Part shown: piece by piece, positions 2,144 to 61,592 of the stretch
How the letters are laid out: each line of letters begins with the position of its first letter
Position numbering within the stretch: position 1 is the stretch's first letter
NCBI GenBank assembly: GCA_029834535.1
Contig: JAQMWT010000314.1
Coordinates: 921,661-985,660, forward strand
Length of the DNA stretch: 64,000 nt
From: Chrysophaeum taylorii
Lineage: Eukaryota; Sar; Pelagophyceae; Pelagomonadales; Pelagomonadaceae
Direction of reading: 5' to 3'
The notes under the pieces: model-generated
Seen by the model: the letters and a program-made list of their open reading frames with translations, nothing else
Database searches by the model: none
What the model was told of the DNA's origin: nothing
Translations under genes and position numbers: made by a program

Positions 2144-3982
2144 CTATGGCGCGCGTTGGAGCAGCAGATACTGGTTGACGCTGCCGAGGAGCTGCTTGGA
2201 TGTGAAGGGCTTTGCAATGACCGCGTCGAAGTTGGGCTGAATGGTGACCATATCGACGCTGGCGGTGCAGGCGATGATGACGGGTCGGGACTTACGTTGG
2301 CCGTAGCGAGCAAAGAAGGCCCGAGCCATTTCGAGTCCGCCGAGCACGGGCATGTTGATGTCGGTCAGGATAACGTCGATTTTGGGGTGTTGCGAATCGA
2401 GGTTGTGGATAATTTTTTCGATGCCCTCCTTGCCGTTGTTGGCGACGTCGACGTCGTGGCCGGCCTTGGCGAGCGTGCGAACGACGAGATGGCGAAGGGC
2501 GATCGTGTCCTCGACGACGAGGATCTTGGCGCGCTGGAGGACGGGCGGCTTCGCGGCGAAGTGGTTCGGTGCCTCGCTGGATGATTTGCACGGCACCGTG
2601 AACCAAAAATGCGAGCCGGGAGATAGGGGCTCGTAGCCGCACTCGCCGCCTAAAATCCGCGTGCGGATCGTGACTCCGTAGAGGCCCACGCCGCTCCCTT
2701 TGATTGTTGACGTCGAAGTCGGGTTGGTGATGACGCCGCCGAAGAGCTGGGCGCGTTTTTCTTCGGGCACGCCGCAGCCCGTGTCCTTGACGCTCACGAG
2801 GAGACACGAGCCGTCCGGCGACGAAATGTTCACGTCGATGCTGCCGGCCCGCGTGTGCTTGGTCGCGTTCGTCAGATAGCTCAGGATGTTTTGGATGAGC
2901 CAGTCGCGGTCGGTGGTAACAAATTCCGACACGTTGGGCGAGATTCTGATGTTGACCGGCACGGAGGCCGTCGTGGCGGCGATCAGCCGCGTGCACTTCT
3001 CCTTGATCGTTTCGACGCGAAACGACGATTCTTTAGCGACCATGCTCCCGGTATGCGCGATCTCCAAGGCCTGCATGACCATCAACCGAAGAAATTCCGC
3101 CGCGGACTCGGCCTCGTTGAGGAGATCTCTCGCGTTGTCGAGGTCCCTGATGGCGATTGCCTTTTGAGTCAATTCCAACGATAGCAAAAAGCTCGACACG
3201 GGCGTCTTGATATCGTGCGCGACGGTCGCCAAGTGGTCTATGCGCGCCTGGTTGATCTCGGCGTATTGGAGCGCGGCCTCGGCCTTGGCGTCCCGAGCGA
3301 GCCGCGACAGCAGCACGAACCCGTTCGACTTGCGGAAAATAACCGCGTCGAGCTCCTTGAACCGAGACGCGTGAGCCTCGAGCCGAATCCGAGTCACGGC
3401 CGCTTCGACGTCCTCCACGAGCAGGGCGTTTTTGAGCTTGACGGCGTCGGACGCGCTCACGCATTCGAAGATGTTGCCGAGCGTCGACCGCGCGAACAGC
3501 GTCGCGTCACCAATGTACTGCTCGAAGCCTCCGACCTCGTTATGGAGAGATATGCACATCCCAAATCCCGTCGTCGAGTCGTTGTCGACGAGCATGTCGT
3601 TCGTCAAAAATATGTTCGTGAGCTCGGCGGGCGAGTAGCGCGTGACGGCTTTGAACACGGGCAGCCAACGCAGCAGCGCGAGGGCCGTCAACGCGCTCGC
3701 GACCGCCGTCAGCGGCTTGGTCAACCGCAGCGACCACCGAAAAAACGCGCCCCCGAGATGCGTCAGCCCGCACGAAAAGATGAACAGCATGAACAACACG
3801 CTGTGCATCTTTGCCTCGTCCGACACGCGCCGCGACATGTGCCGCGAGGACAGTCTGAGCGTCAACGCGATTTCCATGGGGATCAGAAAGTACGACACGG
3901 CGATGATTATGTCGCACGCCGCCTCCCAGCTCCATGCCTCCACTCCAAGGCTCGTCGTCTTCGTCGTCGTTGCCTGCCGCAT
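2144..3982 (-). CDS. Ethylene-receptor-like hybrid histidine kinase
   Basis: This is a 612-residue membrane sensor kinase. Residues 20-110 form three hydrophobic helices that match the ETR1-type ethylene-binding domain: D24, YFLIPME at 31-37 and the FSCGLTHL motif with C71 and H75, the pair that holds Cu(I) in plant receptors. A PAS-like stretch (about 130-225) follows. Then come HisKA (AHDIKTPV, phospho-His H256), a HATPase domain with N-box (NATKH, near 372), DTGCG (400-404) and GSGVGLY (429-435), and a C-terminal receiver (about 485-605) with ED at 491-492, phosphoacceptor D541, T573 and K591. All catalytic boxes appear intact. The expected role is autophosphorylation and phosphorelay to an HPt protein, probably at the ER or another internal membrane. 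Ethylene as the ligand is inference. The start is the only ATG before the first helix. Confidence 0.85.
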   Translation of the reverse strand: MRQATTTKTTSLGVEAWSWEAACDIIIAVSYFLIPMEIALTLRLSSRHMSRRVSDEAKMHSVLFMLFIFSCGLTHLGGAFFRWSLRLTKPLTAVASALTALALLRWLPVFKAVTRYSPAELTNIFLTNDMLVDNDSTTGFGMCISLHNEVGGFEQYIGDATLFARSTLGNIFECVSASDAVKLKNALLVEDVEAAVTRIRLEAHASRFKELDAVIFRKSNGFVLLSRLARDAKAEAALQYAEINQARIDHLATVAHDIKTPVSSFLLSLELTQKAIAIRDLDNARDLLNEAESAAEFLRLMVMQALEIAHTGSMVAKESSFRVETIKEKCTRLIAATTASVPVNIRISPNVSEFVTTDRDWLIQNILSYLTNATKHTRAGSIDVNISSPDGSCLLVSVKDTGCGVPEEKRAQLFGGVITNPTSTSTIKGSGVGLYGVTIRTRILGGECGYEPLSPGSHFWFTVPCKSSSEAPNHFAAKPPVLQRAKILVVEDTIALRHLVVRTLAKAGHDVDVANNGKEGIEKIIHNLDSQHPKIDVILTDINMPVLGGLEMARAFFARYGQRKSRPVIIACTASVDMVTIQPNFDAVIAKPFTSKQLLGSVNQYLLLQRAP

Positions 3983-16483: not shown

Positions 16484-17872
16484 TTAGCTCAAGACAGGAC
16501 CGAGGAGGCACCAAGTCTCGACGCGAGAGCGCGGGTTCAAACAGCATCGGACCTCGACTCGAGGGTCTTCGTTCGTCCGGCAAGTTTTGGCATTGGCCTC
16601 GGTGCCCTCGTAGCACAGCAGGACAACACCATTCGTCTCGGCTCCTGTGAATCGCACGAAGGCCGCGCCATTCATTCGGCGAGCTACTACCGTGCCGTAG
16701 TACCAACCGTACTCTGCCTCTTCGAGAGAGGATGGATGCGAATCAAGCCGAGCTACTACCGTGCCGTAGTACCAACCGTACTCTGCCTCTTCGAGAGAGG
16801 ATGGATGCGAATCAAGCCGAGCTACTACCGTGCCGTAGTACCAACCGTACTCTGCCTCTTCGAGAGAGGATGGATGCGAATCAAGCCGAGCTACTACCGT
16901 GCCGTAGTACCAACCGTACTCTGCCTCTTCGAGAGAGGATGGATGCGAATCAAGCCGAGCTACTACCGTGCCGTAGTACCAACCGTACTCTGCCTCTTCG
17001 AGAGAGGATGGATGCGAATCAAGCCGAGCTACTACCGTGCCGTAGTACCAACCGTACTCTGCCTCTTCGAGAGAGGATGGATGCGAATCAAGCCGAGCTA
17101 CTACCGTGCCGTAGTACCAACCGTACTCTGCCTCTTCGAGAGAGGATGGATGCGAATCAAGCCGAGCTACTACCGTGCCGTAGTACCAACCGTACTCTGC
17201 CTCTTCGAGAGAGGATGGATGCGAATCAAGCCGAGCTACTACCGTGCCGTAGTACCAACCGTACTCTGCCTCTTCGAGAGAGGATGGATGCGAATCAAGC
17301 CGAGCTACTACCGTGCCGTAGTACCAACCGTACTCTGCCTCTTCGAGAGAGGATGGATGCGAATCAAGCCGAGCTACTACCGTGCCGTAGTACCAACCGT
17401 ACTCTGCCTCTTCGAGAGAGGATGGATGCGAATCAAGCCGAGCTACTACCGTGCCGTAGTACCAACCGTACTCTGCCTCTTCGAGAGAGGATGGATGCGA
17501 ATCAAGCCGAGCTACTACCGTGCCGTAGTACCAACCGTACTCTGCCTCTTCGAGAGAGGATGGATGCGAATCAAGCCGAGCTACTACCGTGCCGTAGTAC
17601 CAACCGTACTCTGCCTCTTCGAGAGAGGATGGATGCGAATCAAGCCGAGCTACTACCGTGCCGTAGTACCAACCGTACTCTGCCTCTTCGAGAGAGGATG
17701 GATGCGAATCAAGCCGAACGAGCTCCCTCGTCACGTCGATAACAAAGCCAGGTGGTGCAATTGGCTCGCCAATGGCATCAATAGCGGCGACGTCTTGTGG
17801 GTCCGTCGTGTCATCAACGTCACCGTCATCCCCCACGATGTCGTACGCTTCGCCAGTCTTGACGTCTTCCAC
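16484..17872 (-). CDS. Protein with fifteen identical 23-residue repeats (possible exon)
   Basis: The frame has 52 unique residues, then fifteen perfect copies of a unit containing DSHPSSLEEAEYGWYYGTVV, then 65 unique residues. The last repeat runs into GWYYGTVVARRMNGAAFVRF, which resembles a Tudor/agenet-like beta-strand pair (W-Y-x-G-x-V ... F), so the array may have grown from part of such a domain. No ATG precedes the frame: it opens after a TGA, so this is either an internal exon or a fragment. Two plus-strand frames are also open through the array, because 69 is a multiple of 3. The minus frame was preferred because its unique flanks look protein-like (DPQDVAAIDAIGEPIAPPGF). Function unknown. 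Confidence 0.5.
   Translation of the reverse strand: MEDVKTGEAYDIVGDDGDVDDTTDPQDVAAIDAIGEPIAPPGFVIDVTRELVRLDSHPSSLEEAEYGWYYGTVVARLDSHPSSLEEAEYGWYYGTVVARLDSHPSSLEEAEYGWYYGTVVARLDSHPSSLEEAEYGWYYGTVVARLDSHPSSLEEAEYGWYYGTVVARLDSHPSSLEEAEYGWYYGTVVARLDSHPSSLEEAEYGWYYGTVVARLDSHPSSLEEAEYGWYYGTVVARLDSHPSSLEEAEYGWYYGTVVARLDSHPSSLEEAEYGWYYGTVVARLDSHPSSLEEAEYGWYYGTVVARLDSHPSSLEEAEYGWYYGTVVARLDSHPSSLEEAEYGWYYGTVVARLDSHPSSLEEAEYGWYYGTVVARLDSHPSSLEEAEYGWYYGTVVARRMNGAAFVRFTGAETNGVVLLCYEGTEANAKTCRTNEDPRVEVRCCLNPRSRVETWCLLGPVLS
16682..17716. repeat. Perfect tandem repeat, 15 x 69 bp
   Basis: Fifteen copies of a 69-bp unit with no differences seen between copies. Each unit carries CGAGCTACTACCGTGCCGTA and CTCTTCGAGAGAGGATGGAT on the plus strand. 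The identity implies very recent expansion or continuing homogenisation. The unit length preserves the reading frame. Confidence 0.97.
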
Positions 17873-17954
17873 CGCGGCAACGATGCTCGGGCCGTCGTCG
17901 CGCGAATTGGGGCGCGCGGCATTTCAACCGACTGCGGACTCTGTGCCCTGAAAA

Positions 17955-18529
17955 ATGTCACCGCGAACAAAACCATCACAGTCCAGGAGACAGACGCTCG
18001 AGACCGCGCGCGAGCTGCAGCAGGTTCTCCTCGACAGCGAAGTTTTTTTAACGAGCGGAATGCATTCGGAGGTAACGCCCCATCCCCAGTGCCCACTGCC
18101 GAGATGTCATCGCTCGCAGGTGGACCACTTCGACGACAACACGGGCAACTTCAGCGGCAAGGTCCTCGTGGCGCTGGCCTTTGAGTACGGCTACCGCCTC
18201 TACCGTATCTCGAGCGAGAACGACGGCCAGTGCGGCAACCGCGCGGGACCTCGTCGAGACGCTCAGCTTCCTCGCAAAAAAAAAAATCGCGCCTGTGCGG
18301 TGCCCTCTGGCGTCTCGGCTCGGCCATCGGCACCGCCGCAGCTAGCGGCCATTGGGTTGCTGCCTCCCATGTCCCGAGCCTCGCCGACTGGCGCCAGCAC
18401 GAATGGGCCTTCATAGACAGCCTCGTCTCAGGACCCGCCAAAATCACCACCACCGAGGACGTCCTCGCGGAGCTCGACAGTGCCGAGAGGCAACGTGCCG
18501 AGTTCTTCGTCGTCGTCGACTTGAGCTAA
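17955..18529 (+). pseudogene. Decayed coding region, family unknown
   Basis: Two adjacent frames each carry protein-like sequence with GC-rich third positions. One has VDHFDDNTGNFSGKVLVALA then EYGYRLYRISSENDGQCGNR, and the next has GSAIGTAAASGHWVAASHVP then EDVLAELDSAERQRAEFFVV, ending in a stop at 18527-18529. The change of frame falls at a run of A (18276-18285), suggesting an indel in an old gene, though a short intron is possible. I recognise no family. It sits in a repeat-rich stretch with other broken frames. Confidence 0.45.
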
Positions 18530-20700: not shown

Positions 20701-22143
20701 ATGGCCCAACCACCTGTCCTCGCGCCTGTCCTCGCGCCTGCCCCGGTGGTCCCCGATTTCTTCACGCCATCGACGGAAGAAACGAACGAGCACATCTCGA
20801 AAGTCGAATTTCCGACGGAGAGTGAAGGCCGCAAGCCCTTTTGGAAGCGGAATCCAGACATGTTCCTGGAAACGACGTTATTTGTCGTCCTCTTGCTGCT
20901 CGGCATTGTTTTCATCGAGCTTTCGGAGGGTCTCAAAGGATCGACGCTGGGTCCTCCCCTCTTCAACGGCGGATTTGTCCCACTTATCAAAACCTGCATA
21001 TCCGTTGGCGTGGCTGCGTCCAGGCGCCAGCTTCTCGAGCTCTCGGTCCCGGGGTGGCTCGCGGTGGGGGTGACTTTGGTCTTGCTTGTTGCCGGGATGT
21101 TGGTCAACCCAACTGGCGATGGCAATTGGTTGGCCTACGTTGGCGGGTCGATATTTGAATCGGGATTGATCTACTGCATCTACAGGGTCTTCTTCGTCTC
21201 CGAACACCCCGACGACGCCATCCGCGACCTCGAAGCAAAGATAGAAGAACTCCGAACCAGTACCGCCTGTGGCCTGGCGGATTCTTACTACGAAAATTTC
21301 CTCAAGTGGATTGCCAAGGGCATGCGACACGCACTGACTCGAGATAGTGCCACCCTCACCGACAAGGGGTTGTCAGCCGCGCAACATCGCCTCTTTCCCA
21401 AATTCGCTGTGATTATCCCCCGCGGTCCACCCCCCCCTGACAAGAGTTTTGGCAAGGATGGGAGCTGGGTCCTCGATCCCCTGATCCAGCTGCGCCATCA
21501 TGGCAACGTCGTGAAAGACTGCCACTTTGGCACGCCGGAGGCAACAAAAAAATTTCGACCTCACTGGGTTTGTCGTCCCTTGTTCAACATCCCCAACGAA
21601 GACCGCACCGTACTGTTCGACATCCCTTCGACGATCAAAACCATCGTTCTCAGTATCAACCTCGCGATGGACGACGGTACCGATGATAGCAAAAAATTTG
21701 AGCGTTTTGATGCAGAACTTCATCGCTTTGCCTATCGCACGGCCTGGCTCTTGAAAAAACACGGCCTCGAAGACAATGTCGCTGTCTACTTCGTACGGTA
21801 CCTGAGCGTCCAGGATGATTTGCCAAAAATAGTCCGCGACATCAAGACTCCTGCCCCAGCGCCGTCATCCGCGTCCGCGGCACTGCCCGCACCTGCTCCT
21901 GCCCCAGCGCCCTCGTCCGCGTCCGCGGCACTGCCCGCACCTGCTCCTGCCCCAGCGCCCTCGTCCGCGTCCGCGGCACTGCCCGCACCTGCTCCTGCCT
22001 CAACGCGGTCTACCTCCGCTTCATTGCTATCGTCGTCTCAAGGCATCGAACCACACACAGGCGACGAAGACATCGAAGCCGGTCGCGAGTTGATCGCAGG
22101 CAAAGACAAAGATGAAGAGAAAAAAGAAGAGGTTTCTTCGTAG
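20701..22143 (+). CDS. STING-like cyclic-dinucleotide receptor, multi-span membrane form
   Basis: This 480-residue protein has four hydrophobic segments (about 54-74, 91-106, 117-137, 143-165), a short linker helix (170-188), then a domain at 189-383 matching the STING ligand-binding domain. CGLADSYYENFLKWI (190-204) aligns with the alpha1 helix GLAWSYYIGYL of human STING. FPKFAVIIPRG (232-242) aligns with RLYILLPLD. TVLFDIPSTIKTI (303-315) aligns with TCVLEYATPLQTL, putting D307 at E260 and S310 at T263 of the ligand pocket. FDAELHRFAYRTAWLLK matches the last long helix, and VYFVRY the last strand. The expected role is sensing cyclic dinucleotides at an internal membrane. The tail (384-480) is Pro/Ala-rich then acidic, with no TBK1-type motif. 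The start ATG lies at the first base. Homology is by motif and order; binding is inference. Confidence 0.78.
   Translation: MAQPPVLAPVLAPAPVVPDFFTPSTEETNEHISKVEFPTESEGRKPFWKRNPDMFLETTLFVVLLLLGIVFIELSEGLKGSTLGPPLFNGGFVPLIKTCISVGVAASRRQLLELSVPGWLAVGVTLVLLVAGMLVNPTGDGNWLAYVGGSIFESGLIYCIYRVFFVSEHPDDAIRDLEAKIEELRTSTACGLADSYYENFLKWIAKGMRHALTRDSATLTDKGLSAAQHRLFPKFAVIIPRGPPPPDKSFGKDGSWVLDPLIQLRHHGNVVKDCHFGTPEATKKFRPHWVCRPLFNIPNEDRTVLFDIPSTIKTIVLSINLAMDDGTDDSKKFERFDAELHRFAYRTAWLLKKHGLEDNVAVYFVRYLSVQDDLPKIVRDIKTPAPAPSSASAALPAPAPAPAPSSASAALPAPAPAPAPSSASAALPAPAPASTRSTSASLLSSSQGIEPHTGDEDIEAGRELIAGKDKDEEKKEEVSS
21853..21996 (+). repeat. 3 x 48-bp repeat in the STING-like C-terminal tail
   Basis: Three in-frame copies of a 16-codon unit encoding APAPSSASAALPAPAP. 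The first differs from the others at two positions; the second and third are identical. It forms a flexible Pro/Ala-rich linker before the acidic C-terminus. Confidence 0.95.
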
Positions 22144-24004: not shown

Positions 24005-24907
24005 TCAATTTTCGGGTGACCATCGTAGGGGTATCCTCGAATAAGCAAGCTTGTAGACGATGTCGCGCCTCATCGTGATTTCAGAGTTGCCGACTTGGCC
24101 GGCAAGATCCGCAGGCCGCAGCAGCCGTCTGCGCTGGTATCGATGTTTGAGTACGACAGTAGCACAGCACAGGATAAGAGCACAACCACCGCTACAAGCG
24201 AGTAGGGTTTGTATCCACAGCGCGAGGCCTTTTCTCTTCTTCTTCGTCGTCGCGGCGACGTCCGAGGCGCACAGATCGGCAAAGTTGGCCGGGCTGGTCA
24301 AGACCCAGTCCCCTGTCGACACTGGCGCACATGCCGAGAGTTCAATCTGCAGCGTGTCCGAATGATTGTAAAGAGAGAAGATACTGAAGCCTGCGTTCTC
24401 GACGGCGGCGACGACGTCGTAATATCCGCCTCCGGAATTTCGACTTTCGTTCATGATCGCAAGAGGAGCCGCGGACAAGTTACAAATTTGTGTGAAGTAG
24501 TCCGCAGCGCCAGTCACGCCAGCGCACCAACCGTGCTTCGTCCACCTACGCTCAGTTTTTTTTTGTATCCAAACGTCGATCGCTCGCGATAACACCTACT
24601 CGTGGGTCTCAAAGGACACAATTTTGCTGGTGTTACTTCCGCTCTCGTCGTAGCACTCGTAGACTTGCGTCGGATTCGCCTCGGACACCCTCGGCGCAAC
24701 GCATTCGGAATCTCCGTAGGGCGCGACATTCGGCCACAACCCATGGACGGTCGGCTCGTCGTGCGCATAGAACCCTTCGCCGAGCCCACTCTCCAAGGCC
24801 AGGACCCCGCATAAGGAAACGCCCGAACCGCAGGTCATGTACTTGCCAAATACGACGCGCGCCGCAACTATCGCGCACGCAACCCAATCACGTCGTCGTC
24901 GCGTCAT
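24005..24907 (-). CDS. RNase T2 family ribonuclease with C-terminal membrane anchor (one intron)
   Basis: Exons 24907-24600 and 24545-24005 join to give 282 residues. RNase T2 enzymes cut single-stranded RNA through a 2',3'-cyclic phosphate intermediate in secretory, lysosomal or vacuolar compartments. CAS1 is PTVHGLWPN with catalytic H55. CAS2 is HEWTKHGWC with H102, E103, K106 and H107; it is restored exactly when the 54-nt GT-AG intron is removed, which proves the splice. Near the N-terminus WVACAIVAARVVFG may be the signal peptide. After the catalytic domain comes a clear transmembrane helix (LWIQTLLACSGGCALILCCA) and a basic cytosolic tail, unusual for this mostly soluble family. The start ATG (24905-24907) is 60 bp from the divergent STING-like gene. 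Confidence 0.85.
24546..24599 (-). other. 54-nt GT-AG intron in the RNase T2 gene
   Basis: On the minus strand it starts GTAGGTG and ends CGTAG. Removing it joins CACGA to GTGGACGAAG and restores the conserved HEWTKHG motif. Unspliced, the frame stops at TAG right after His-Glu. Confidence 0.92.
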
Positions 24908-24967: not shown

Positions 24968-24994
24968 ATGCTCGTGACTTCTCGCGGTGCCCTC

Positions 24995-25036
<42 letters not shown>

Positions 25037-25654
25037 ATAGGCTGCGCTACGGTCGGTGTGCGGCTGCTTCGGCGGATTCGCGTCCTTGAAGCGGAGGTCA
25101 CGTCGCTGCGAGACTCGGTGGCTGGTGGCCTTGCCGAGGGGTACTATCTCAACTTTCTGCGTTGGGTCGCGCACGATCTCGCAAGAGGCGGAGGGACGAC
25201 GGTGGTGACAGAAGGAGGGACGTCGATGTCGAGACGAACGCCGTATTTCTTCGTCGTCGTGCCAACGACGCCTTTTGGTTGGACGTCGGACCAACCAATC
25301 TCAAAAGTTCTGCTCGACGCCAAATCGAGCGGGATGATTGTCGACTGCCACGTCGGAGAGCCCCAACCCCGATTCCGCCCGCAGACGATTCATCGTCTCA
25401 CCTCCTCGCTCGCTTACGACGTCCTCTTCGACATTCCGACGACACTCCAAGTCTTTTTCAGAACAATCCACGACGATAACCGTAGGGACGAAATGTTCGC
25501 GCTCGAAATCGGGCGATTCGTCAATCGTCTCGAGAACCACATCGACACCGACCCGGATCTCAATACCGTCGTCAAAATCGTCCGGGTTCGCGACAGCGAC
25601 GTCATTAGTGCCCTCCCTCACATCATTGCTGACGCGTTTCCGGTTCCCGAGTAG
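24968..25654 (+). CDS. STING-like protein 2, short single-anchor form
   Basis: This 228-residue protein starts at the ATG at 24968-24970. A run of 14 alanines (10-23) plus IGCATVGV makes one membrane-compatible helix, then a basic/heptad segment (RLLRRIRVLEAEVTSLRDSV), then the STING-like domain (53-224). GGLAEGYYLNFLRWV (53-67) matches the alpha1 helix of the longer paralogue at 20.7 kb. PYFFVVVPTTPF matches its core strand. YDVLFDIPTTLQVFF (150-164) gives the pocket motif with D155 and T158; DIPTTL is close to the form in bacterial STINGs. The last helix and strand are EIGRFVNRLENHI and VVKIVRVRD. It lacks the four-helix membrane region and long tail of its paralogue. Ligand unknown. It is divergent from RNase T2. 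Confidence 0.75.
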
Positions 25655-31898: not shown

Positions 31899-34385
31899 TA
31901 TCCATGACAACCGCGACATGAACTTCACGCGACTTTACAAGCGCATTACCGATGTCTACATGGGCCGTGGGGATTGCGTAGTGAACTTCCTCAACAAGTT
32001 CATCATCGGAGTATACAAGTTGCTCAGCATTGTACCTATCACCGGCGTTCAAGTTGCTCGGCATTTTACCTATCACCGGAGTTCAAGTTGCTCGGCATTG
32101 TACCTGATCCGACGCACCCTCGAGTGTGTCCTCGCATTTGACTACGTGCATCGTGCTTCAAGCCTTACTGGCTTTGTTTTATCGTCTCGCGTTTCGTACC
32201 GATGAATGTGGTTCTACCCTTGAGAAGTTCAACAACAACGATGAATGTGGTTCTACCCTTGAGAAGTTCAACAACAATCAATTTCGATGGCATGCACAAC
32301 CACTTCCGCCGCGCTATCCGCCGCGTCGCCAGCCACGACTTCAGACTCTTCCAACTGACCTACCCTAGACGCTCCCCTTTCCCAACAACCTGGCTCTACT
32401 CGATTCCGACGCACTACCCGATGTCTTTTTGGCGGCTGCAAGGATCACTTTAAGGGGGACTGCCGCAAGTTTCAAAGTTCTTAGCTATTCCACGACAACG
32501 CCCTACCCACCATCGCCGTTCTTCTCAACAGCGCAGCACTTTCAAGATAATTCCAAGTCAGCGTGTGTACCGCCGAATGTCTGATGCAAGCACATCAACA
32601 GCCCCATCCCACGGAAGCCCCTCGTTTTTGTTTTTAGCTCCCATTGCACAGGCGCCTCGTTCTGTATTTTCCCCTCGTCGTTGCTCCTCTCCTCGTTCTG
32701 TCTTTTCCCCTCGTCGTTGCTCCCCTCCTCGTTCTGTATTTCGCCTATTCGTTGCTCCACTCCCCGTTGTACATTTTCAGCTATTCGTCGATCCACTCCT
32801 CGTTGTGCTTGTCGGTTTTGGTAAAACCAGCGAATCACGTTCCATCGCTCATTTCACCTGCCACAACTAAGCTGTGCCTGTCAATTTTTCGCGTGCGCAG
32901 TTTTCGTGCTTCCTATGTGGTTGGATCGCTTATCTTCGGGATCCTGGACAAACGCTTCTTTGCTGTGTGATTTGTGGTTCTCCTTCACGCACTTTTTCGC
33001 CGCTTTTCTGACCTTTAAAATTCGGTTTTGCTATCGACGTGAATTCCGTGCTCAGCACCCGCGACGCTATCTGCAATGTTCTTACGTGCCACTACGACGC
33101 TATCTGCAAGCTATCTGCAACGTTCTTACGTGCCACAACTGTTTTGCCACTGTCGCCAACTTCTACCGCAGTCTATTCGAGTATGACGAGCGAAGCTCGC
33201 CGCTTGCTCCTCCAACGTTGGCCCATATGGCAATTTCGTTCTTGCGACTGCGAAAACGGGCCACTTTCTTATCTGTCACAGCAGGCTGGCATACAGCAGC
33301 CTGGTCTACCTGTGTTCGTTCCTTACACCGCAGGCGCGTCCGAAGTCTTCCAATATCGCGTACAGGACGCGGTCGTGCCCATGGCAACTTGCTCGCGCCA
33401 TAACACCCAAACACCCAACGTTCGTATCAAACCTGCTTACGCCTGTTTTTGCTTCTGTCGACTCCAACCATCGTCATAACCTGGTCACCATGCACCATGC
33501 AACCTATCTGCCCAAAGGCAACGTTCTCATCAGACGTCTGGTACACCGCCATCATATGTACCAGCCTGTGTTTCCGCTATCTTTGCCCCGCTGCAACAAT
33601 CGTCTAACGCACGTCATCCCAGGCACTTTTGTCGCTATTGTTCTTCAGACCTCGATTTTGCTGACAGTTTCACTTACCCGATTTCCTGCAATGTCAACCA
33701 CCGAAGGAACTTCAACGTTGTTCTGACTTTCTCGAATCACGCTTCCAAGCTCTCGTCTATTGTTCCCCCATTGTCCGCTGTTCTTCCGCTGTTGCCCCCT
33801 TGTCCGCTGTTGCCCCCTTGCCCCCTGTGTTTGATGAGAATGCGCCGGTTTCACTGGGACTGATCACCCCATCACGCGAACCGACCATTCTACGAGCTCG
33901 AGAGAAAAGTACAAATGAGCACCAAAGAGAGAAAACAACAGAAAGTGCAAAACAAAGTCGCGCCAAACGGAGCCGACCGCGCAAAGTCGACCAACCAACA
34001 AACTTTTTTTACGGGCCATTCTGATGTTGATACGGGCCATTCTGATGTTGATACGGGCCATTCTGATGTCGATACGGGCCATTCTGTTTCCCCCTGTAAC
34101 TCCTTGTATGTCTCTTCTGTTAGCTTTTGTTTGTTAGTTCATTAGGTCTTCCTTCCCCTTTGTTTAGCTAACACCCTTGTTGATCCTCATGCACACGTTT
34201 ATTACTCTGCTTCCGAAGAAATGTCTCAGTATCAGACCTTGACGAAACGACTATCCGACCAATCCTAAGCGTCCTGGCTGGTTGCAAGCCATCGCTAAAG
34301 AATACAGCTCTCTTGGTCAGCTTGGTTCCTGGAATGTTATTCTCCTTCCTTCGATGATGATGATGTTTCTGGCAACATTTGTACC

Positions 34386-35282
34386 CACAAGTGGATCCTC
34401 CGCAAGAAGTATGACTCTGGCCGCTTCAAATCGTACAAGGCTCGCCTTGTCGTCTGCGGTTACACCCAGGTTCACGGCATTGATTATCATGACACCTACT
34501 CACCGGTTGCCAACATCGTCACGATCCGTTTCTTTCTGACCTTTGTCGCTGTTCATGACTGGGATTTGCACAAGTTGGATGTTAGGTCTGCTTTTATTCA
34601 AGCTCCCATTGACGAAGACATCTATGTCTGGCCACCCGAAGGCTATGCTCCTCGCCAACCCACCGATGGTTCCAAAATCGTTTACAAGTTCCGTCGCTCT
34701 TGGTATGGTTGCAAACAAGCTTGTCGCAATTGGTGGCTTCATTTGGAACGCTTCCTTCTCAATGATTGTGGCTTCGTCCGCGGATCTGGTGACACTTGCC
34801 ATTACAAGCTCGTCCTCAATTCTACCGTGGTCCTCCGTCTTGTTTTAGTCGTTGATGATCTTCTTGTGGCGCACCCTCGTCATTGCATTGGCCATTACCA
34901 AGCCTTTTTCCTCCGTCTCCGCGCTTTCACTGACGTCAATGAACTCGATCTCACCTCTTACGTTGGTCTTCGCATTACGCGTGTCCCTTTTCGCCGTATT
35001 GTTGGCTGTGTCCTCTTCATCTCCATCATGACTCGCCCTGATATCACTTGGTCCGTCAATCAGTGTGCGCGTTTTTCCCACAATCCTGGTAAACCCCACT
35101 GGCACGCTTGGCACGCTTTATCCCACACTCTGCGTTATCTCAATGGCTCTCACGATCTTGCCCTTGTTCTTGGTCGCGATTCTACCCTTCGTCTCTGTGG
35201 TTATTCCGACTCCAGCTGGGCCGACGACCCTGATGACCACCACTCCACAACTGTTTCTTTGTTTTCTCTGCTGGCTCTATGA
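34386..35282 (+). pseudogene. Copia reverse transcriptase, truncated
   Basis: The frame starts at HKWILRKKYDSGRFKSYKAR followed by LVVCGYTQVHGIDYHDTYSP, then LHKLDVRSAFIQAPIDEDIY with VWPPEGY. These are the classic copia RT blocks. The catalytic motif reads VVDDLL in place of YVDDLL, and sequence is missing between SYVGLRITRV and RRIVGCVLFISIMTRPDITW, where the thumb/connection should be. No start codon of its own; it was part of a polyprotein. Confidence 0.88.
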
Positions 35283-35312
35283 TCGCCTACTGCTCCCGCT
35301 CGCAGTACTTAC

Positions 35313-35642
35313 TTGCTCGTTCTTCTTTCGAAGCTTGCTCTTTACGCTGCTACTGCTGAGCTCTCTTGGCTTCTCAAACTTTTTGATGACTTTGATCTCC
35401 CTCGTCACACGGTCCCAATGTATGTTGATAATAGCACCACCGTCACCCAAGTTCGTCTCCAATGTCTCACACGGCGCACCCGCCATATTGACATTCGCTT
35501 TTACAGTACCGCCGAGTACCATCGCAACCACATCATCGATCTCAAGCACATACCCCGCCTTAACAATCTTAGCGACATTTTCACCCGCAGTACGGAAACT
35601 CCTTCCTTCCTCCGGCTTCGTGCTCGTTACCTCACTTCGTGA
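35313..35642 (+). pseudogene. Copia RNase H fragment
   Basis: The frame carries AATAELSWLLKLFDDFDLPR, YVDNSTTVTQV and RRTRHIDIRFYSTAEYHRNH with HIPRLNNLSDIFTRS, matching the copia RNase H C-terminal half. It is out of frame with the RT portion, so an indel lies near 35283-35312. Confidence 0.85.
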
Positions 35643-35840
35643 TCTTCGCCCTGATCTCTGTTGTCTCTTTTTCTTGCCACAATGCCTCTGTGACGTCTTC
35701 CTCAAATGTGACGTCTTCCTCAAAGCTTCTCCTCTGTGAGCGTCTCACTTACCCCTTTTTTTTTTTCCTTTTCCTTCTTTTCCAGCACCTGTGTGAGGAC
35801 CTCACTTACCCCTTTTTCCTTTTCCTTCTTTTCCAGCACC

Positions 35841-35936
35841 TGTGTGAAGAAGCTATGACACTTACCCCTGCACCACGTATCCAGTATCCTTACGTCTTTC
35901 TCTTATCGCTAGTCTAACGCCTCATACCATTCGTCA
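35841..35936 (+). repeat. Right LTR of the copia element
   Basis: Identical to the left LTR. Just upstream, 35740-35840 holds two copies of a T/C-rich unit (TTTTCCTTCTTTTCCAGCACC) ending in an LTR-like TGTGTGAGGA. Confidence 0.95.
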
Positions 35937-35941
35937 CACCC

Positions 35942-36565
35942 TGTGTAATAACAGAGGAGTTCTTCCGTATTTTCTTTTTTCAGCGTGTATTTTTTCGAAA
36001 TTTTCTATTTTCAGTGTGTTGGGAGTAGACGCAAAAAGCAAATTGAACTTCCCTTTTTTTGCGATCCGTTGAGTCTCGAACGAACTGAAAGGGCTGGGCT
36101 CTCCGAGACGAACGCAGTGTTGTTGATCAGCCGAAGAGCTTTCGTTTCGCGCGAACGCATTGTTATTAATCAGCCGAAGAAGACCTTTGGTTAAGCCTCG
36201 TCTTCAGAGAGAGAGGGTTTAGGAGTCAAAAGTTAAAGGGCGGAGCGTGCGCTGATTAAAGCAGCGCGCGGTGATATAAATTTTTGCCAAAGAAAAAAAA
36301 TGTCTGCTGCGCCTCTCAACTCGTAGAGGTTAAAAATATCGAACGCGCAGTGCTCGCCAAGCGACGACGGCGTCCTCACCGCACCCGCCTCCCTCGCCGA
36401 GTCGAACTCGTTCTCGGTCGCTCCTCCCCAAGTCTCCTCCAGCGGCTCGACGGACCGGGTGCTCTTTTGTCGTTGCGCGCGAGTGCCGTTTGGTGCCGTT
36501 TGGATTTGCATGCCCAGCTTGTTTGGTTCAGCAGGAAGTTAGTTTGACAAAACACTTGGCGGCAC
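35942..36565. other. Intergenic, no gene
   Basis: Contains a stretch (36043-36110) resembling 23587-23655 (GAACTTCCC...ATCCGTT...TCGAAC...ACTGAAA), perhaps part of a small dispersed repeat. No gene recognised. Confidence 0.5.
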
Positions 36566-60143: not shown

Positions 60144-61592
60144 TCAAGGGAGATCTCTCCGGCTCTCGACGACGGCGACTTCGTCCGCGAGGTTGACGAG
60201 GACGGCTATGGAAGTCATCGCGGCGAGACCGGCGACGACGAGGGTGAGCTCGTAGGGAGAGTCGATCGTGTTGCAATAGGCAGCGAGGGTAACGCAGAGG
60301 AGAATGATGGCCACGTGGGTGAGGAGCTGGACGTGGAAGATGCGTCGCGCGGACGGGTCGGGATCGCGGATAGAGAGATAGGGTTGTTTTCTGAACGTAC
60401 CCCAGTAGGTCCACCAGTGATCGGTCCCGAGGATGTGCGAGAGGTTGTGCGTGAGGCGCTCCAAGGTGAGGCAGGCGATGGCAGTCGCCACGCACAAGCA
60501 GAGCAAGGTGTGGGCGTCGTCGGCGCGCTTCCAGGTGTGGGGTTGGGTGACGAGCATGAGCGTCAGGACGATGCGCACGCAGCTGCCAGCGACAGCCATC
60601 GCGACGTCGAAGAAAAATGCTGCCTCGAGGTATATCCAGGGCCGGAAGAAGCCGCCGACGCGGTAGCAATGTCTCTTGATGGGGACGACGTCGACGTCGA
60701 AGGCGAGCAGCTTCATGTTGAGAACGATGAGAAAGGCGAGGGCTACGGGCAAGATGGCCGTCACCCCCAATCGGGCGGGCGTAATCGTACAGCCCGTCAC
60801 CACCTCGCCAAAGAGGATCAACCGGAGGCAGCCGCGGCGTTCGATGAGGTGGTCCACGTGGACCGGGACGCGGTCTCTCTTCGGAATCCGGAAACAGTTG
60901 TAACCGACGCCGTGAAACGCGGGAATAAAAAGCCCGACGAAAAGGAGCGCCCCCAGCATCCAAACAGGATCAGAGACGCGCGCTGCGACGAGATTTCCCA
61001 CGGCCTCTAAGACGCCGGGGACGACGCCGTGGCGCACCATGTGCGCGCGCGTCGACGGAAGCGACGCGACGACGCGGAAGTACAGAACGCTCATCACTGC
61101 GTGATAGGCGGCCGCCGCGCGCGCAACCGTCTGCGCCGTCGCGACGAACTCGTACCCCCCACCGATCCTCAACCCCGCGCAGCACAGCAAGAACATGAGG
61201 AGTCCCGTACACGCGTACTTGTCCACGAGATTGTCGCAAAAAAACCGACCCGCGTACTGCGTCGTTGACCACCAGCATGCGTAGATGATGCGGTACAGGA
61301 CCACGGCCTCCAGCAAGCTCAGATCACCCGCCTGGTACGCTTCCCCGAGTTTGCCGATGTTCGTCACCAAGATCAGGTCCAAAAACAACTCGCTCCACGT
61401 CACTTTTCGGCCTTTTTCAGCTATACCCTTCGATTCCCGATCCTCGTCGACGTGGTCCCACTTGACCACGCATCGCGGCGCTTGGATGAGCCCCCGCTGC
61501 CACCAGAACGCGTTCTCCTCGTCCGACGACGAATCACAATCCTCCGATCCGCCGCCGCCATCCAACCTGACGCCCTCCTCAACGGCACTCAT
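60144..61592 (-). CDS. LtrA-family multi-pass membrane protein
   Basis: This 482-residue protein starts at the ATG at 61590-61592. The signature VTWSELFLDLILVTNIGKL (64-82) matches the bacterial low-temperature-requirement A motif (V-x-x-x-ELFFDL-x-x-V), and HLIERRGCLRLILFGEVVTG matches the second motif (HF-x-ERFG-x-x-x-I-x-x-GE). About twelve hydrophobic helices follow, with a short loop DHWWTYWGTFRKQPYLSIRD near residue 410. The family is widespread in bacteria and algae; its molecular function is not established. An acidic N-terminal 30 residues faces the cytosol. There is no intron evidence. Confidence 0.82.
   Translation of the reverse strand: MSAVEEGVRLDGGGGSEDCDSSSDEENAFWWQRGLIQAPRCVVKWDHVDEDRESKGIAEKGRKVTWSELFLDLILVTNIGKLGEAYQAGDLSLLEAVVLYRIIYACWWSTTQYAGRFFCDNLVDKYACTGLLMFLLCCAGLRIGGGYEFVATAQTVARAAAAYHAVMSVLYFRVVASLPSTRAHMVRHGVVPGVLEAVGNLVAARVSDPVWMLGALLFVGLFIPAFHGVGYNCFRIPKRDRVPVHVDHLIERRGCLRLILFGEVVTGCTITPARLGVTAILPVALAFLIVLNMKLLAFDVDVVPIKRHCYRVGGFFRPWIYLEAAFFFDVAMAVAGSCVRIVLTLMLVTQPHTWKRADDAHTLLCLCVATAIACLTLERLTHNLSHILGTDHWWTYWGTFRKQPYLSIRDPDPSARRIFHVQLLTHVAIILLCVTLAAYCNTIDSPYELTLVVAGLAAMTSIAVLVNLADEVAVVESRRDLP

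Follow-up and report, generated by a model that had tools for sequence, protein, structure and literature searches.

A 64,000-nucleotide stretch of Chrysophaeum taylorii DNA (hereafter the window) carries two genes for STING proteins, receptors by which bacteria and animals detect cyclic dinucleotides that serve as alarm signals. The linked pair is new but belongs to a kind of receptor already known, the bacteria-like STINGs (blSTINGs) of eukaryotes. The preliminary description of this DNA reported the first gene, STING1, and overlooked the second, STING2, which lies 2.8 kb downstream on the same strand. Sequence comparisons establish the STING homology of both genes, and we regard their membership in the STING family as nearly certain. 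STING1 is probably a blSTING that serves as a membrane-anchored receptor of bacterial 3′,3′-cyclic dinucleotides, and it probably operates without a cyclase of its own.

Evidence for STING homology

STING1 contains the blocks GLADSYYENFL (residues 191–201), FAVIIPRG (235–242), and VLFDIPSTI (304–312, including D307 and S310), in the order and at the places first described. Residues 191–345 match the Pfam model prok_STING (PF20300) with an E-value of 1.3e-5 (25.7 bits), and STING2 matches the same model with an E-value of 1.1e-4 (22.7 bits). The PADLOC TIR-STING effector model also matches STING1 when the tail of the protein is left out (E = 1e-7). The best stretch of the PADLOC “TIR” effector model in STING1 is the model end (positions 226–304 of 310). 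When a profile of STING1 and STING2 was searched against PDB sequences, all eight distinct matches up to E = 10 were STINGs (best E = 0.017), and a profile–profile comparison (hhalign) with 13 bacterial-type STINGs gave a probability of 94% and an E-value of 1.2e-7. The proposal that the protein belongs to the STING family and has an N-terminus of membrane type is upheld.

A further profile was built from 119 bacterial-type STING domains, trimmed at one motif from the best 120 of 345 relatives of bacterial STINGs; the remaining 225 relatives may include eukaryotic sequences. Run against 4,634 sequences, this profile gives weak absolute scores (10.8 bits, E = 0.09, for STING2; 8.9 bits, E = 0.35, for STING1). 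Both proteins nevertheless outscore all 4,000 shuffled sequences (highest score 5.2 bits) and the 630 remaining window open reading frames (ORFs) out of 632 with at least 60 amino acids (highest score 3.9 bits). Fold searches with a structural model of STING1 name STING in 48 of 50 entries and 49 of 50 rows.

Several results weigh against this assignment. Both PF20300 scores lie under the gathering cut-off of 27.1 bits, and the identity of the algal proteins to 17 compared bacterial STINGs is only 16%–25%. The NCBIfam Cap12 model gives E = 0.0065 with STING1 (15.7 bits versus a cut-off of 450) and leaves STING2 unmatched. Searched singly against the PDB, STING1 has just one STING (5gs5, E = 2.1) among its 10 matching sequences up to E = 10, and the better matches fall mostly on the low-complexity tail; STING2 matches four sequences, none of them a STING. 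In addition, the STING1 model is partly circular because its alignment held 17 bacterial STINGs. When STING2 was modeled from the two algal rows alone, the predicted local distance difference test score (pLDDT) was 41.6, and the absence of STINGs among the 50 matches listed in each of two fold searches is uninformative at this value. With the failure of the two-row model, the case for the fold depends largely on the bacterial sequences in the alignment.

The animal STING model PF15009 (STING_LBD) and TIR families are both absent from the Pfam matches up to E = 10 for STING1 and STING2, and the N-terminus of STING1 consists instead of hydrophobic helices. Searches of the whole genome by family gave no PF15009 match, with silent positive controls, and two scored PF20300 candidates of which none reached E = 0.001; the control for the latter search was also silent, though hmmscan finds the domain.

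The N-terminus of STING1 probably forms four helices. Hydropathy analysis yields two strong peaks and one moderate peak (residues 54–72, 87–105, and 117–135), in agreement with the multi-span N-terminus of the preliminary description. The structural model has four helices (Table 1), then the helix at the connector position, and then the α1 stem (residues 188–213), which is the helix order of animal STING. Two observations speak against the count of four: no hydropathy window exceeds 1.3 in the last of these helices, and much of the membrane part was modeled at a pLDDT below 50.

Table 1. Positions of the STING genes and associated features in the window
Feature	Coordinates	Strand	Description and basis
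STING1	20701..22143	+	ORF from ATG to TAG, 480 amino acids, intronless; membrane segment, STING ligand-binding domain, Pro/Ala-rich tail
STING1 membrane segment, residues 52–166	20854..21198	+	Four predicted helices 52–78, 92–110, 116–135, 143–166 (model)
STING1 connector-position helix, residues 170–186	21208..21258	+	Precedes ligand-binding domain (model)
STING1 ligand-binding domain, residues 187–382	21259..21846	+	Pfam, profile comparisons, model, fold searches
STING1 α1 stem GLADSYYENFL (191–201), with F200	21271..21303	+	Alignment with bacterial STINGs
STING1 β-strand lid K284-F-R286-P	21550..21561	+	Alignment; model poor here
STING1 VLFDIPST, residues 304–311	21610..21633	+	Alignment; contains D307 and T311
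48-bp tandem repeat, 3.3 copies	21848..22006	+	Codes Pro/Ala/Ser-rich STING1 tail; repeat scan
RNase T2-like gene	24005..24907	-	HGLWP and KHGWC motifs; one short intron inferred by eye
STING2	24968..25654	+	228 amino acids from first ATG; found by search with STING1 protein
STING2 hydrophobic alanine-rich segment, residues 7–31	24986..25060	+	Hydropathy, repeat scan
STING2 STING domain, residues about 54–223	25127..25636	+	GLAEGYYLNF, R135-F-R137-P, VLFDIPTT; alignment

The binding pocket and the proposed function

The pocket was examined in an alignment of 19 rows, comprising the 17 bacterial STINGs, STING1, and STING2. Nine positions are invariant in all rows (L192, A193, Y196, P240, D307, P309, T311, E339, and F343 in STING1 numbering). 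By this alignment, the pocket residues D307, T311, and F200 and the α1 stem are conserved, and STING2 shares the pocket aspartate, threonine, and phenylalanine. D307 and S310 had been equated with E260 and T263 of human STING. The choice of D307 agrees with the bacterial rows, which carry aspartate in this column in 17 of 17 cases, whereas the match to E260 and T263 itself rests on human numbering that we assume to be correct. Bacterial STINGs use a lid arginine, a stacking phenylalanine or leucine, and an aspartate in contact with N2 of guanine, which it recognizes (PMC8748872). The column of F200 holds phenylalanine in 15 of 17 bacterial rows and leucine in the other two, and the alignment would place F200 at the base-stacking position. 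The STING1 stem, GLADSYY, is nearer to the animal stem GLAWSYY than is the choanoflagellate stem ASAQSIW (PMC12424679).

The lid is less regular. All 17 bacterial rows have R-X-(Y/F), the class I form of bacterial STINGs, followed by proline in 15 of them, whereas STING2 has R135-F-R137-P, and R-F-R is the class II form (PMC8748872). STING1 has K284-F-R286-P. If the lysine is correctly aligned with the lid arginine, it could weaken recognition of guanine by STING1, which counts against the function proposed above. How the lid should be aligned is uncertain, given the unequal lengths of the loops and the low quality of the model in this region (pLDDT 56–64 over residues 271–300).

Judged from its pocket, STING1 is likely to bind a cyclic dinucleotide, and there is a roughly even chance that its main ligand is bacterial cyclic di-GMP (c-di-GMP). 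Published blSTINGs have been proposed to respond to exogenous cyclic nucleotides (PMC10732462), and two choanoflagellate STINGs from species without a cGAS-like receptor (cGLR) bind c-di-GMP (PMC12424679). For dimer, ligand, membrane, oligomerization, and output alike, we infer the following scheme. STING1 would sit in an inner membrane, probably that of the endoplasmic reticulum, by means of about four helices, and its cytosolic domains would pair into the STING dimer. The cleft of the dimer would take up a bacterial 3′,3′-cyclic dinucleotide, either c-di-GMP or 3′,3′-cyclic GMP-AMP, and closure of the lid would then drive side-by-side oligomerization on the membrane. The oligomer would constitute the signal, possibly with autophagy as the output by analogy with Monosiga (PMC8592570).

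This scheme departs from a complete antiviral pathway, as found in animals and in cGLR-bearing choanoflagellates, in which STING1 and STING2 would work with an endogenous synthase (cGAS-like or eSMODS) that our searches missed. The alga must face viruses, and the pocket residues are kept in both paralogs, as such a pathway would have it. However, a search of the whole assembly for SMODS domains found none, while the Escherichia coli and Methanocaldococcus jannaschii controls were positive. The Mab-21 and OAS1_C searches of the assembly also found none, but their positive controls were silent, hence these two results are no proof of absence, and exon-by-exon matching could miss a divergent cGLR. 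In the window, which holds 81 ORFs of at least 150 amino acids, a Pfam scan (E ≤ 0.01) of 28 sequences, including one joined protein, gave no family of cGAS/DncV-like nucleotidyltransferases (CD-NTases), although other CD-NTase types or intron-split genes could escape it. In addition, the published blSTINGs typically come from organisms in which no CD-NTase was found (PMC10732462). On balance, we slightly favor an alga that lacks a dedicated CD-NTase of its own, and we consider a missed synthase unlikely.

Still less likely is that the STING fold was kept while the ligand was lost or changed, such that the proteins act as a scaffold or as sensors of another nucleotide. The K284-F-R286 lid of STING1, set against R-X-(Y/F) in every bacterial row, would fit such a change, since replacing R234 of SfSTING with alanine abolishes its strict specificity for c-di-GMP (PMC8748872). 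The minimal anchor of STING2, whose hydrophobic segment is coded by a microsatellite, can likewise be read as functional divergence. Against these points stand the invariance of D307, T311, Y196, and P240, the retention of F200, and the presence of lid residue R135 in STING2. Moreover, the pocket is kept in two paralogs that share about 35% identity, which suggests selection on binding. An origin of the pair from bacterial contamination or from chance ORFs is hardly credible, even though the assembly has at least one bacterial-looking contig (C303). The window lies at the end of a 985,660-bp contig in a 70.8-Mb assembly, and the genes in this context include eukaryotic ones for a histone-fold protein (H4, judging by eye), SDA1, a YchF-type GTPase, and an M3 peptidase; the pair also adjoins the RNase T2-like gene with its inferred intron. 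The codon usage of STING1 residues 1–380 is coding-like only in the gene's own frame (score 0.131, versus −0.03 to −0.54 in the other five frames), although this score is below those of seven reference genes (0.141 to 0.352) and the repetitive tail is not coding-like. Near relatives of STING1 or of the pair number zero in the protein database, genome_contigs, and viral_contigs, so that there is no close bacterial relative either (none in the protein database for STING1, and none in genome_contigs for the pair). The STING pair is nuclear-encoded in a eukaryote.

STING2, neighboring genes, and the host genome

When the genome was searched with the STING1 protein, a single additional locus came up, beginning 4.4 kb further along; this locus is STING2. 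The two proteins align by BLASTP with E = 9e-24 and 32% identity over 212 columns (34.6% over the STING core). By hydropathy, STING2 has a single hydrophobic segment, compared with several in STING1. A membrane anchor is doubtful in STING2 because this lone segment is coded by an in-frame (GCA)13.7 microsatellite (24995–25035). Variation in the length of the microsatellite could alter the anchor. We read STING2 as a linked paralog that has diverged, keeps much the same pocket, and has a minimal anchor; it could act as a separate receptor or as a subunit that partners STING1. Protein searches of the assembly revealed no clear third copy. Two weak matches that STING2 has elsewhere (L039 and L040; E = 0.40 and 0.46 in a search run to E = 1), the second with three internal stop codons, are probably due to chance.

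The RNase T2-like gene is divergent from STING2, and only 60 bp separate the two start codons. Its product matches the family in Pfam (E = 1.9e-7) after two exons are joined by eye, whereas each piece alone matches no family. By eye, it also has a C-terminal hydrophobic segment. It is conceivable, but very improbable, that the three genes form a sensing module. In such an arrangement, STING1 (K-X-R lid, four-helix anchor) and STING2 (R-X-R lid, minimal anchor) would differ in ligand preference or form heterodimers, and the shared 60-bp divergent promoter would tie cyclic-dinucleotide sensing to an RNA-degrading effector without a TIR domain or a cyclase. If so, the locus would represent a eukaryotic defense module composed of STING and a nuclease.

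The host had been called a photosynthetic stramenopile. The assembly does contain plastid genes of the red lineage, and a 103.6-kb plastid contig (C697, 90 kb examined) carries psaA and a red-type rbcL. The five best PDB matches to rbcL are, we presume, diatom enzymes, and the presumably red-algal entries 1bwv and 4f0h rank lower. This ranking makes a stramenopile likely. For psaA, on the other hand, 8wm6 and 7y7b, which we take to be cryptophyte entries, rank above those that we take to be from diatoms. Overall, these comparisons point to a photosynthetic ochrophyte as the likely host, with a haptophyte or a cryptophyte as less likely alternatives. By eye, the plastid contig (L020–L028) also seems to carry genes that we take to be chlL, chlN, chlB, ilvB, and cbbX, as well as one resembling what we take to be rbcR.

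Contig C303 (36 kb, of which 20 kb were examined; L033, L034, and L035) is dense with ORFs that look bacterial by eye. The one GGDEF match in the assembly lies on this contig, and an EAL part is visible by eye. We rejected this protein as an algal source of c-di-GMP and take it for contamination or for the product of an associated bacterium; it was not assigned to the alga because of the bacterial-looking ORFs surrounding it.

Several other features of the window were noted. At 2144–3982 on the minus strand lies a gene for a hybrid histidine kinase with HATPase and receiver domains and a match to the N-terminal domain of ETR1-like ethylene receptors, which is possibly an ethylene-type sensor. 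An LtrA-family membrane protein, of a family that Pfam labels bacterial, is encoded at 60144–61592 on the minus strand. Long overlapping ORFs on both strands at 16484–18184 have Pfam matches without any passing stretch and are likely repeat artifacts. The block at 32001–36000 is strongly asymmetric between its strands (GC skew −0.239, AT skew −0.234, GC content 0.498) and is the most extreme of 16 window blocks.

Relation to known STINGs

STING1 had been proposed to represent an independent eukaryotic branch. In that form the proposal is not supported, since an article of 2023 described blSTINGs with a Prok_STING domain in Stramenopiles and in four further groups, and most of these proteins have four N-terminal helices (PMC10732462). 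According to the same article, a previous study already counted one species each from Stramenopiles and Haptista. C. taylorii itself may be among the published carriers, and a search that covered titles and the beginnings of abstracts turned up no additional article about a STING locus in algae. The proteins described here share with blSTINGs the Prok_STING-type domain, the multi-span N-terminus modeled as four helices in STING1, and a microbial eukaryotic host in which no CD-NTase is typically found. They differ, as judged from the published description, in forming two linked diverged copies, one with a single short anchor, and in the long Pro/Ala-rich tail.

The STINGs of the choanoflagellates Stephanoeca and Diaphanoeca are also eukaryotic, cluster near bacterial STINGs, and occur where no cGLR was detected (PMC12424679). 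Those proteins bind c-di-GMP, whereas the alga belongs to another supergroup and STING1 has a K-X-R lid, a comparison made from published descriptions. Among bacterial proteins, the Cap12 TIR-STINGs of cyclic-oligonucleotide-based antiphage signaling systems (SfSTING, PcSTING, and others) and FsSTING give the best fold matches and have the D-x-P-x-T and L-A-x-x-Y motifs in common with the algal proteins. In contrast to the Cap12 proteins, with their low identity to the algal pair, a membrane segment takes the place of the TIR domain here, and the searches described above found no CD-NTase. Animal STING (TMEM173/STING1) is likewise arranged as four helices followed by a connector helix and then the ligand-binding domain, and it has the similar stem. 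It differs in its ligand-binding domain, whose Pfam model is unmatched here, and in its TBK1-binding tail, which is not seen in the algal proteins when compared with what we take to be the tail motif.

These results place two diverged, linked STING genes with retained pocket residues on a megabase-scale algal contig. In the consulted text, the published blSTINGs are broken down no further than large groups (PMC10732462). The alga seems to live with bacteria, as indicated by the bacterial-looking contig with its GGDEF protein in the same assembly. The pair makes it possible to test whether and how blSTINGs function without CD-NTases (PMC10732462), and whether they read bacterial c-di-GMP (PMC12424679).
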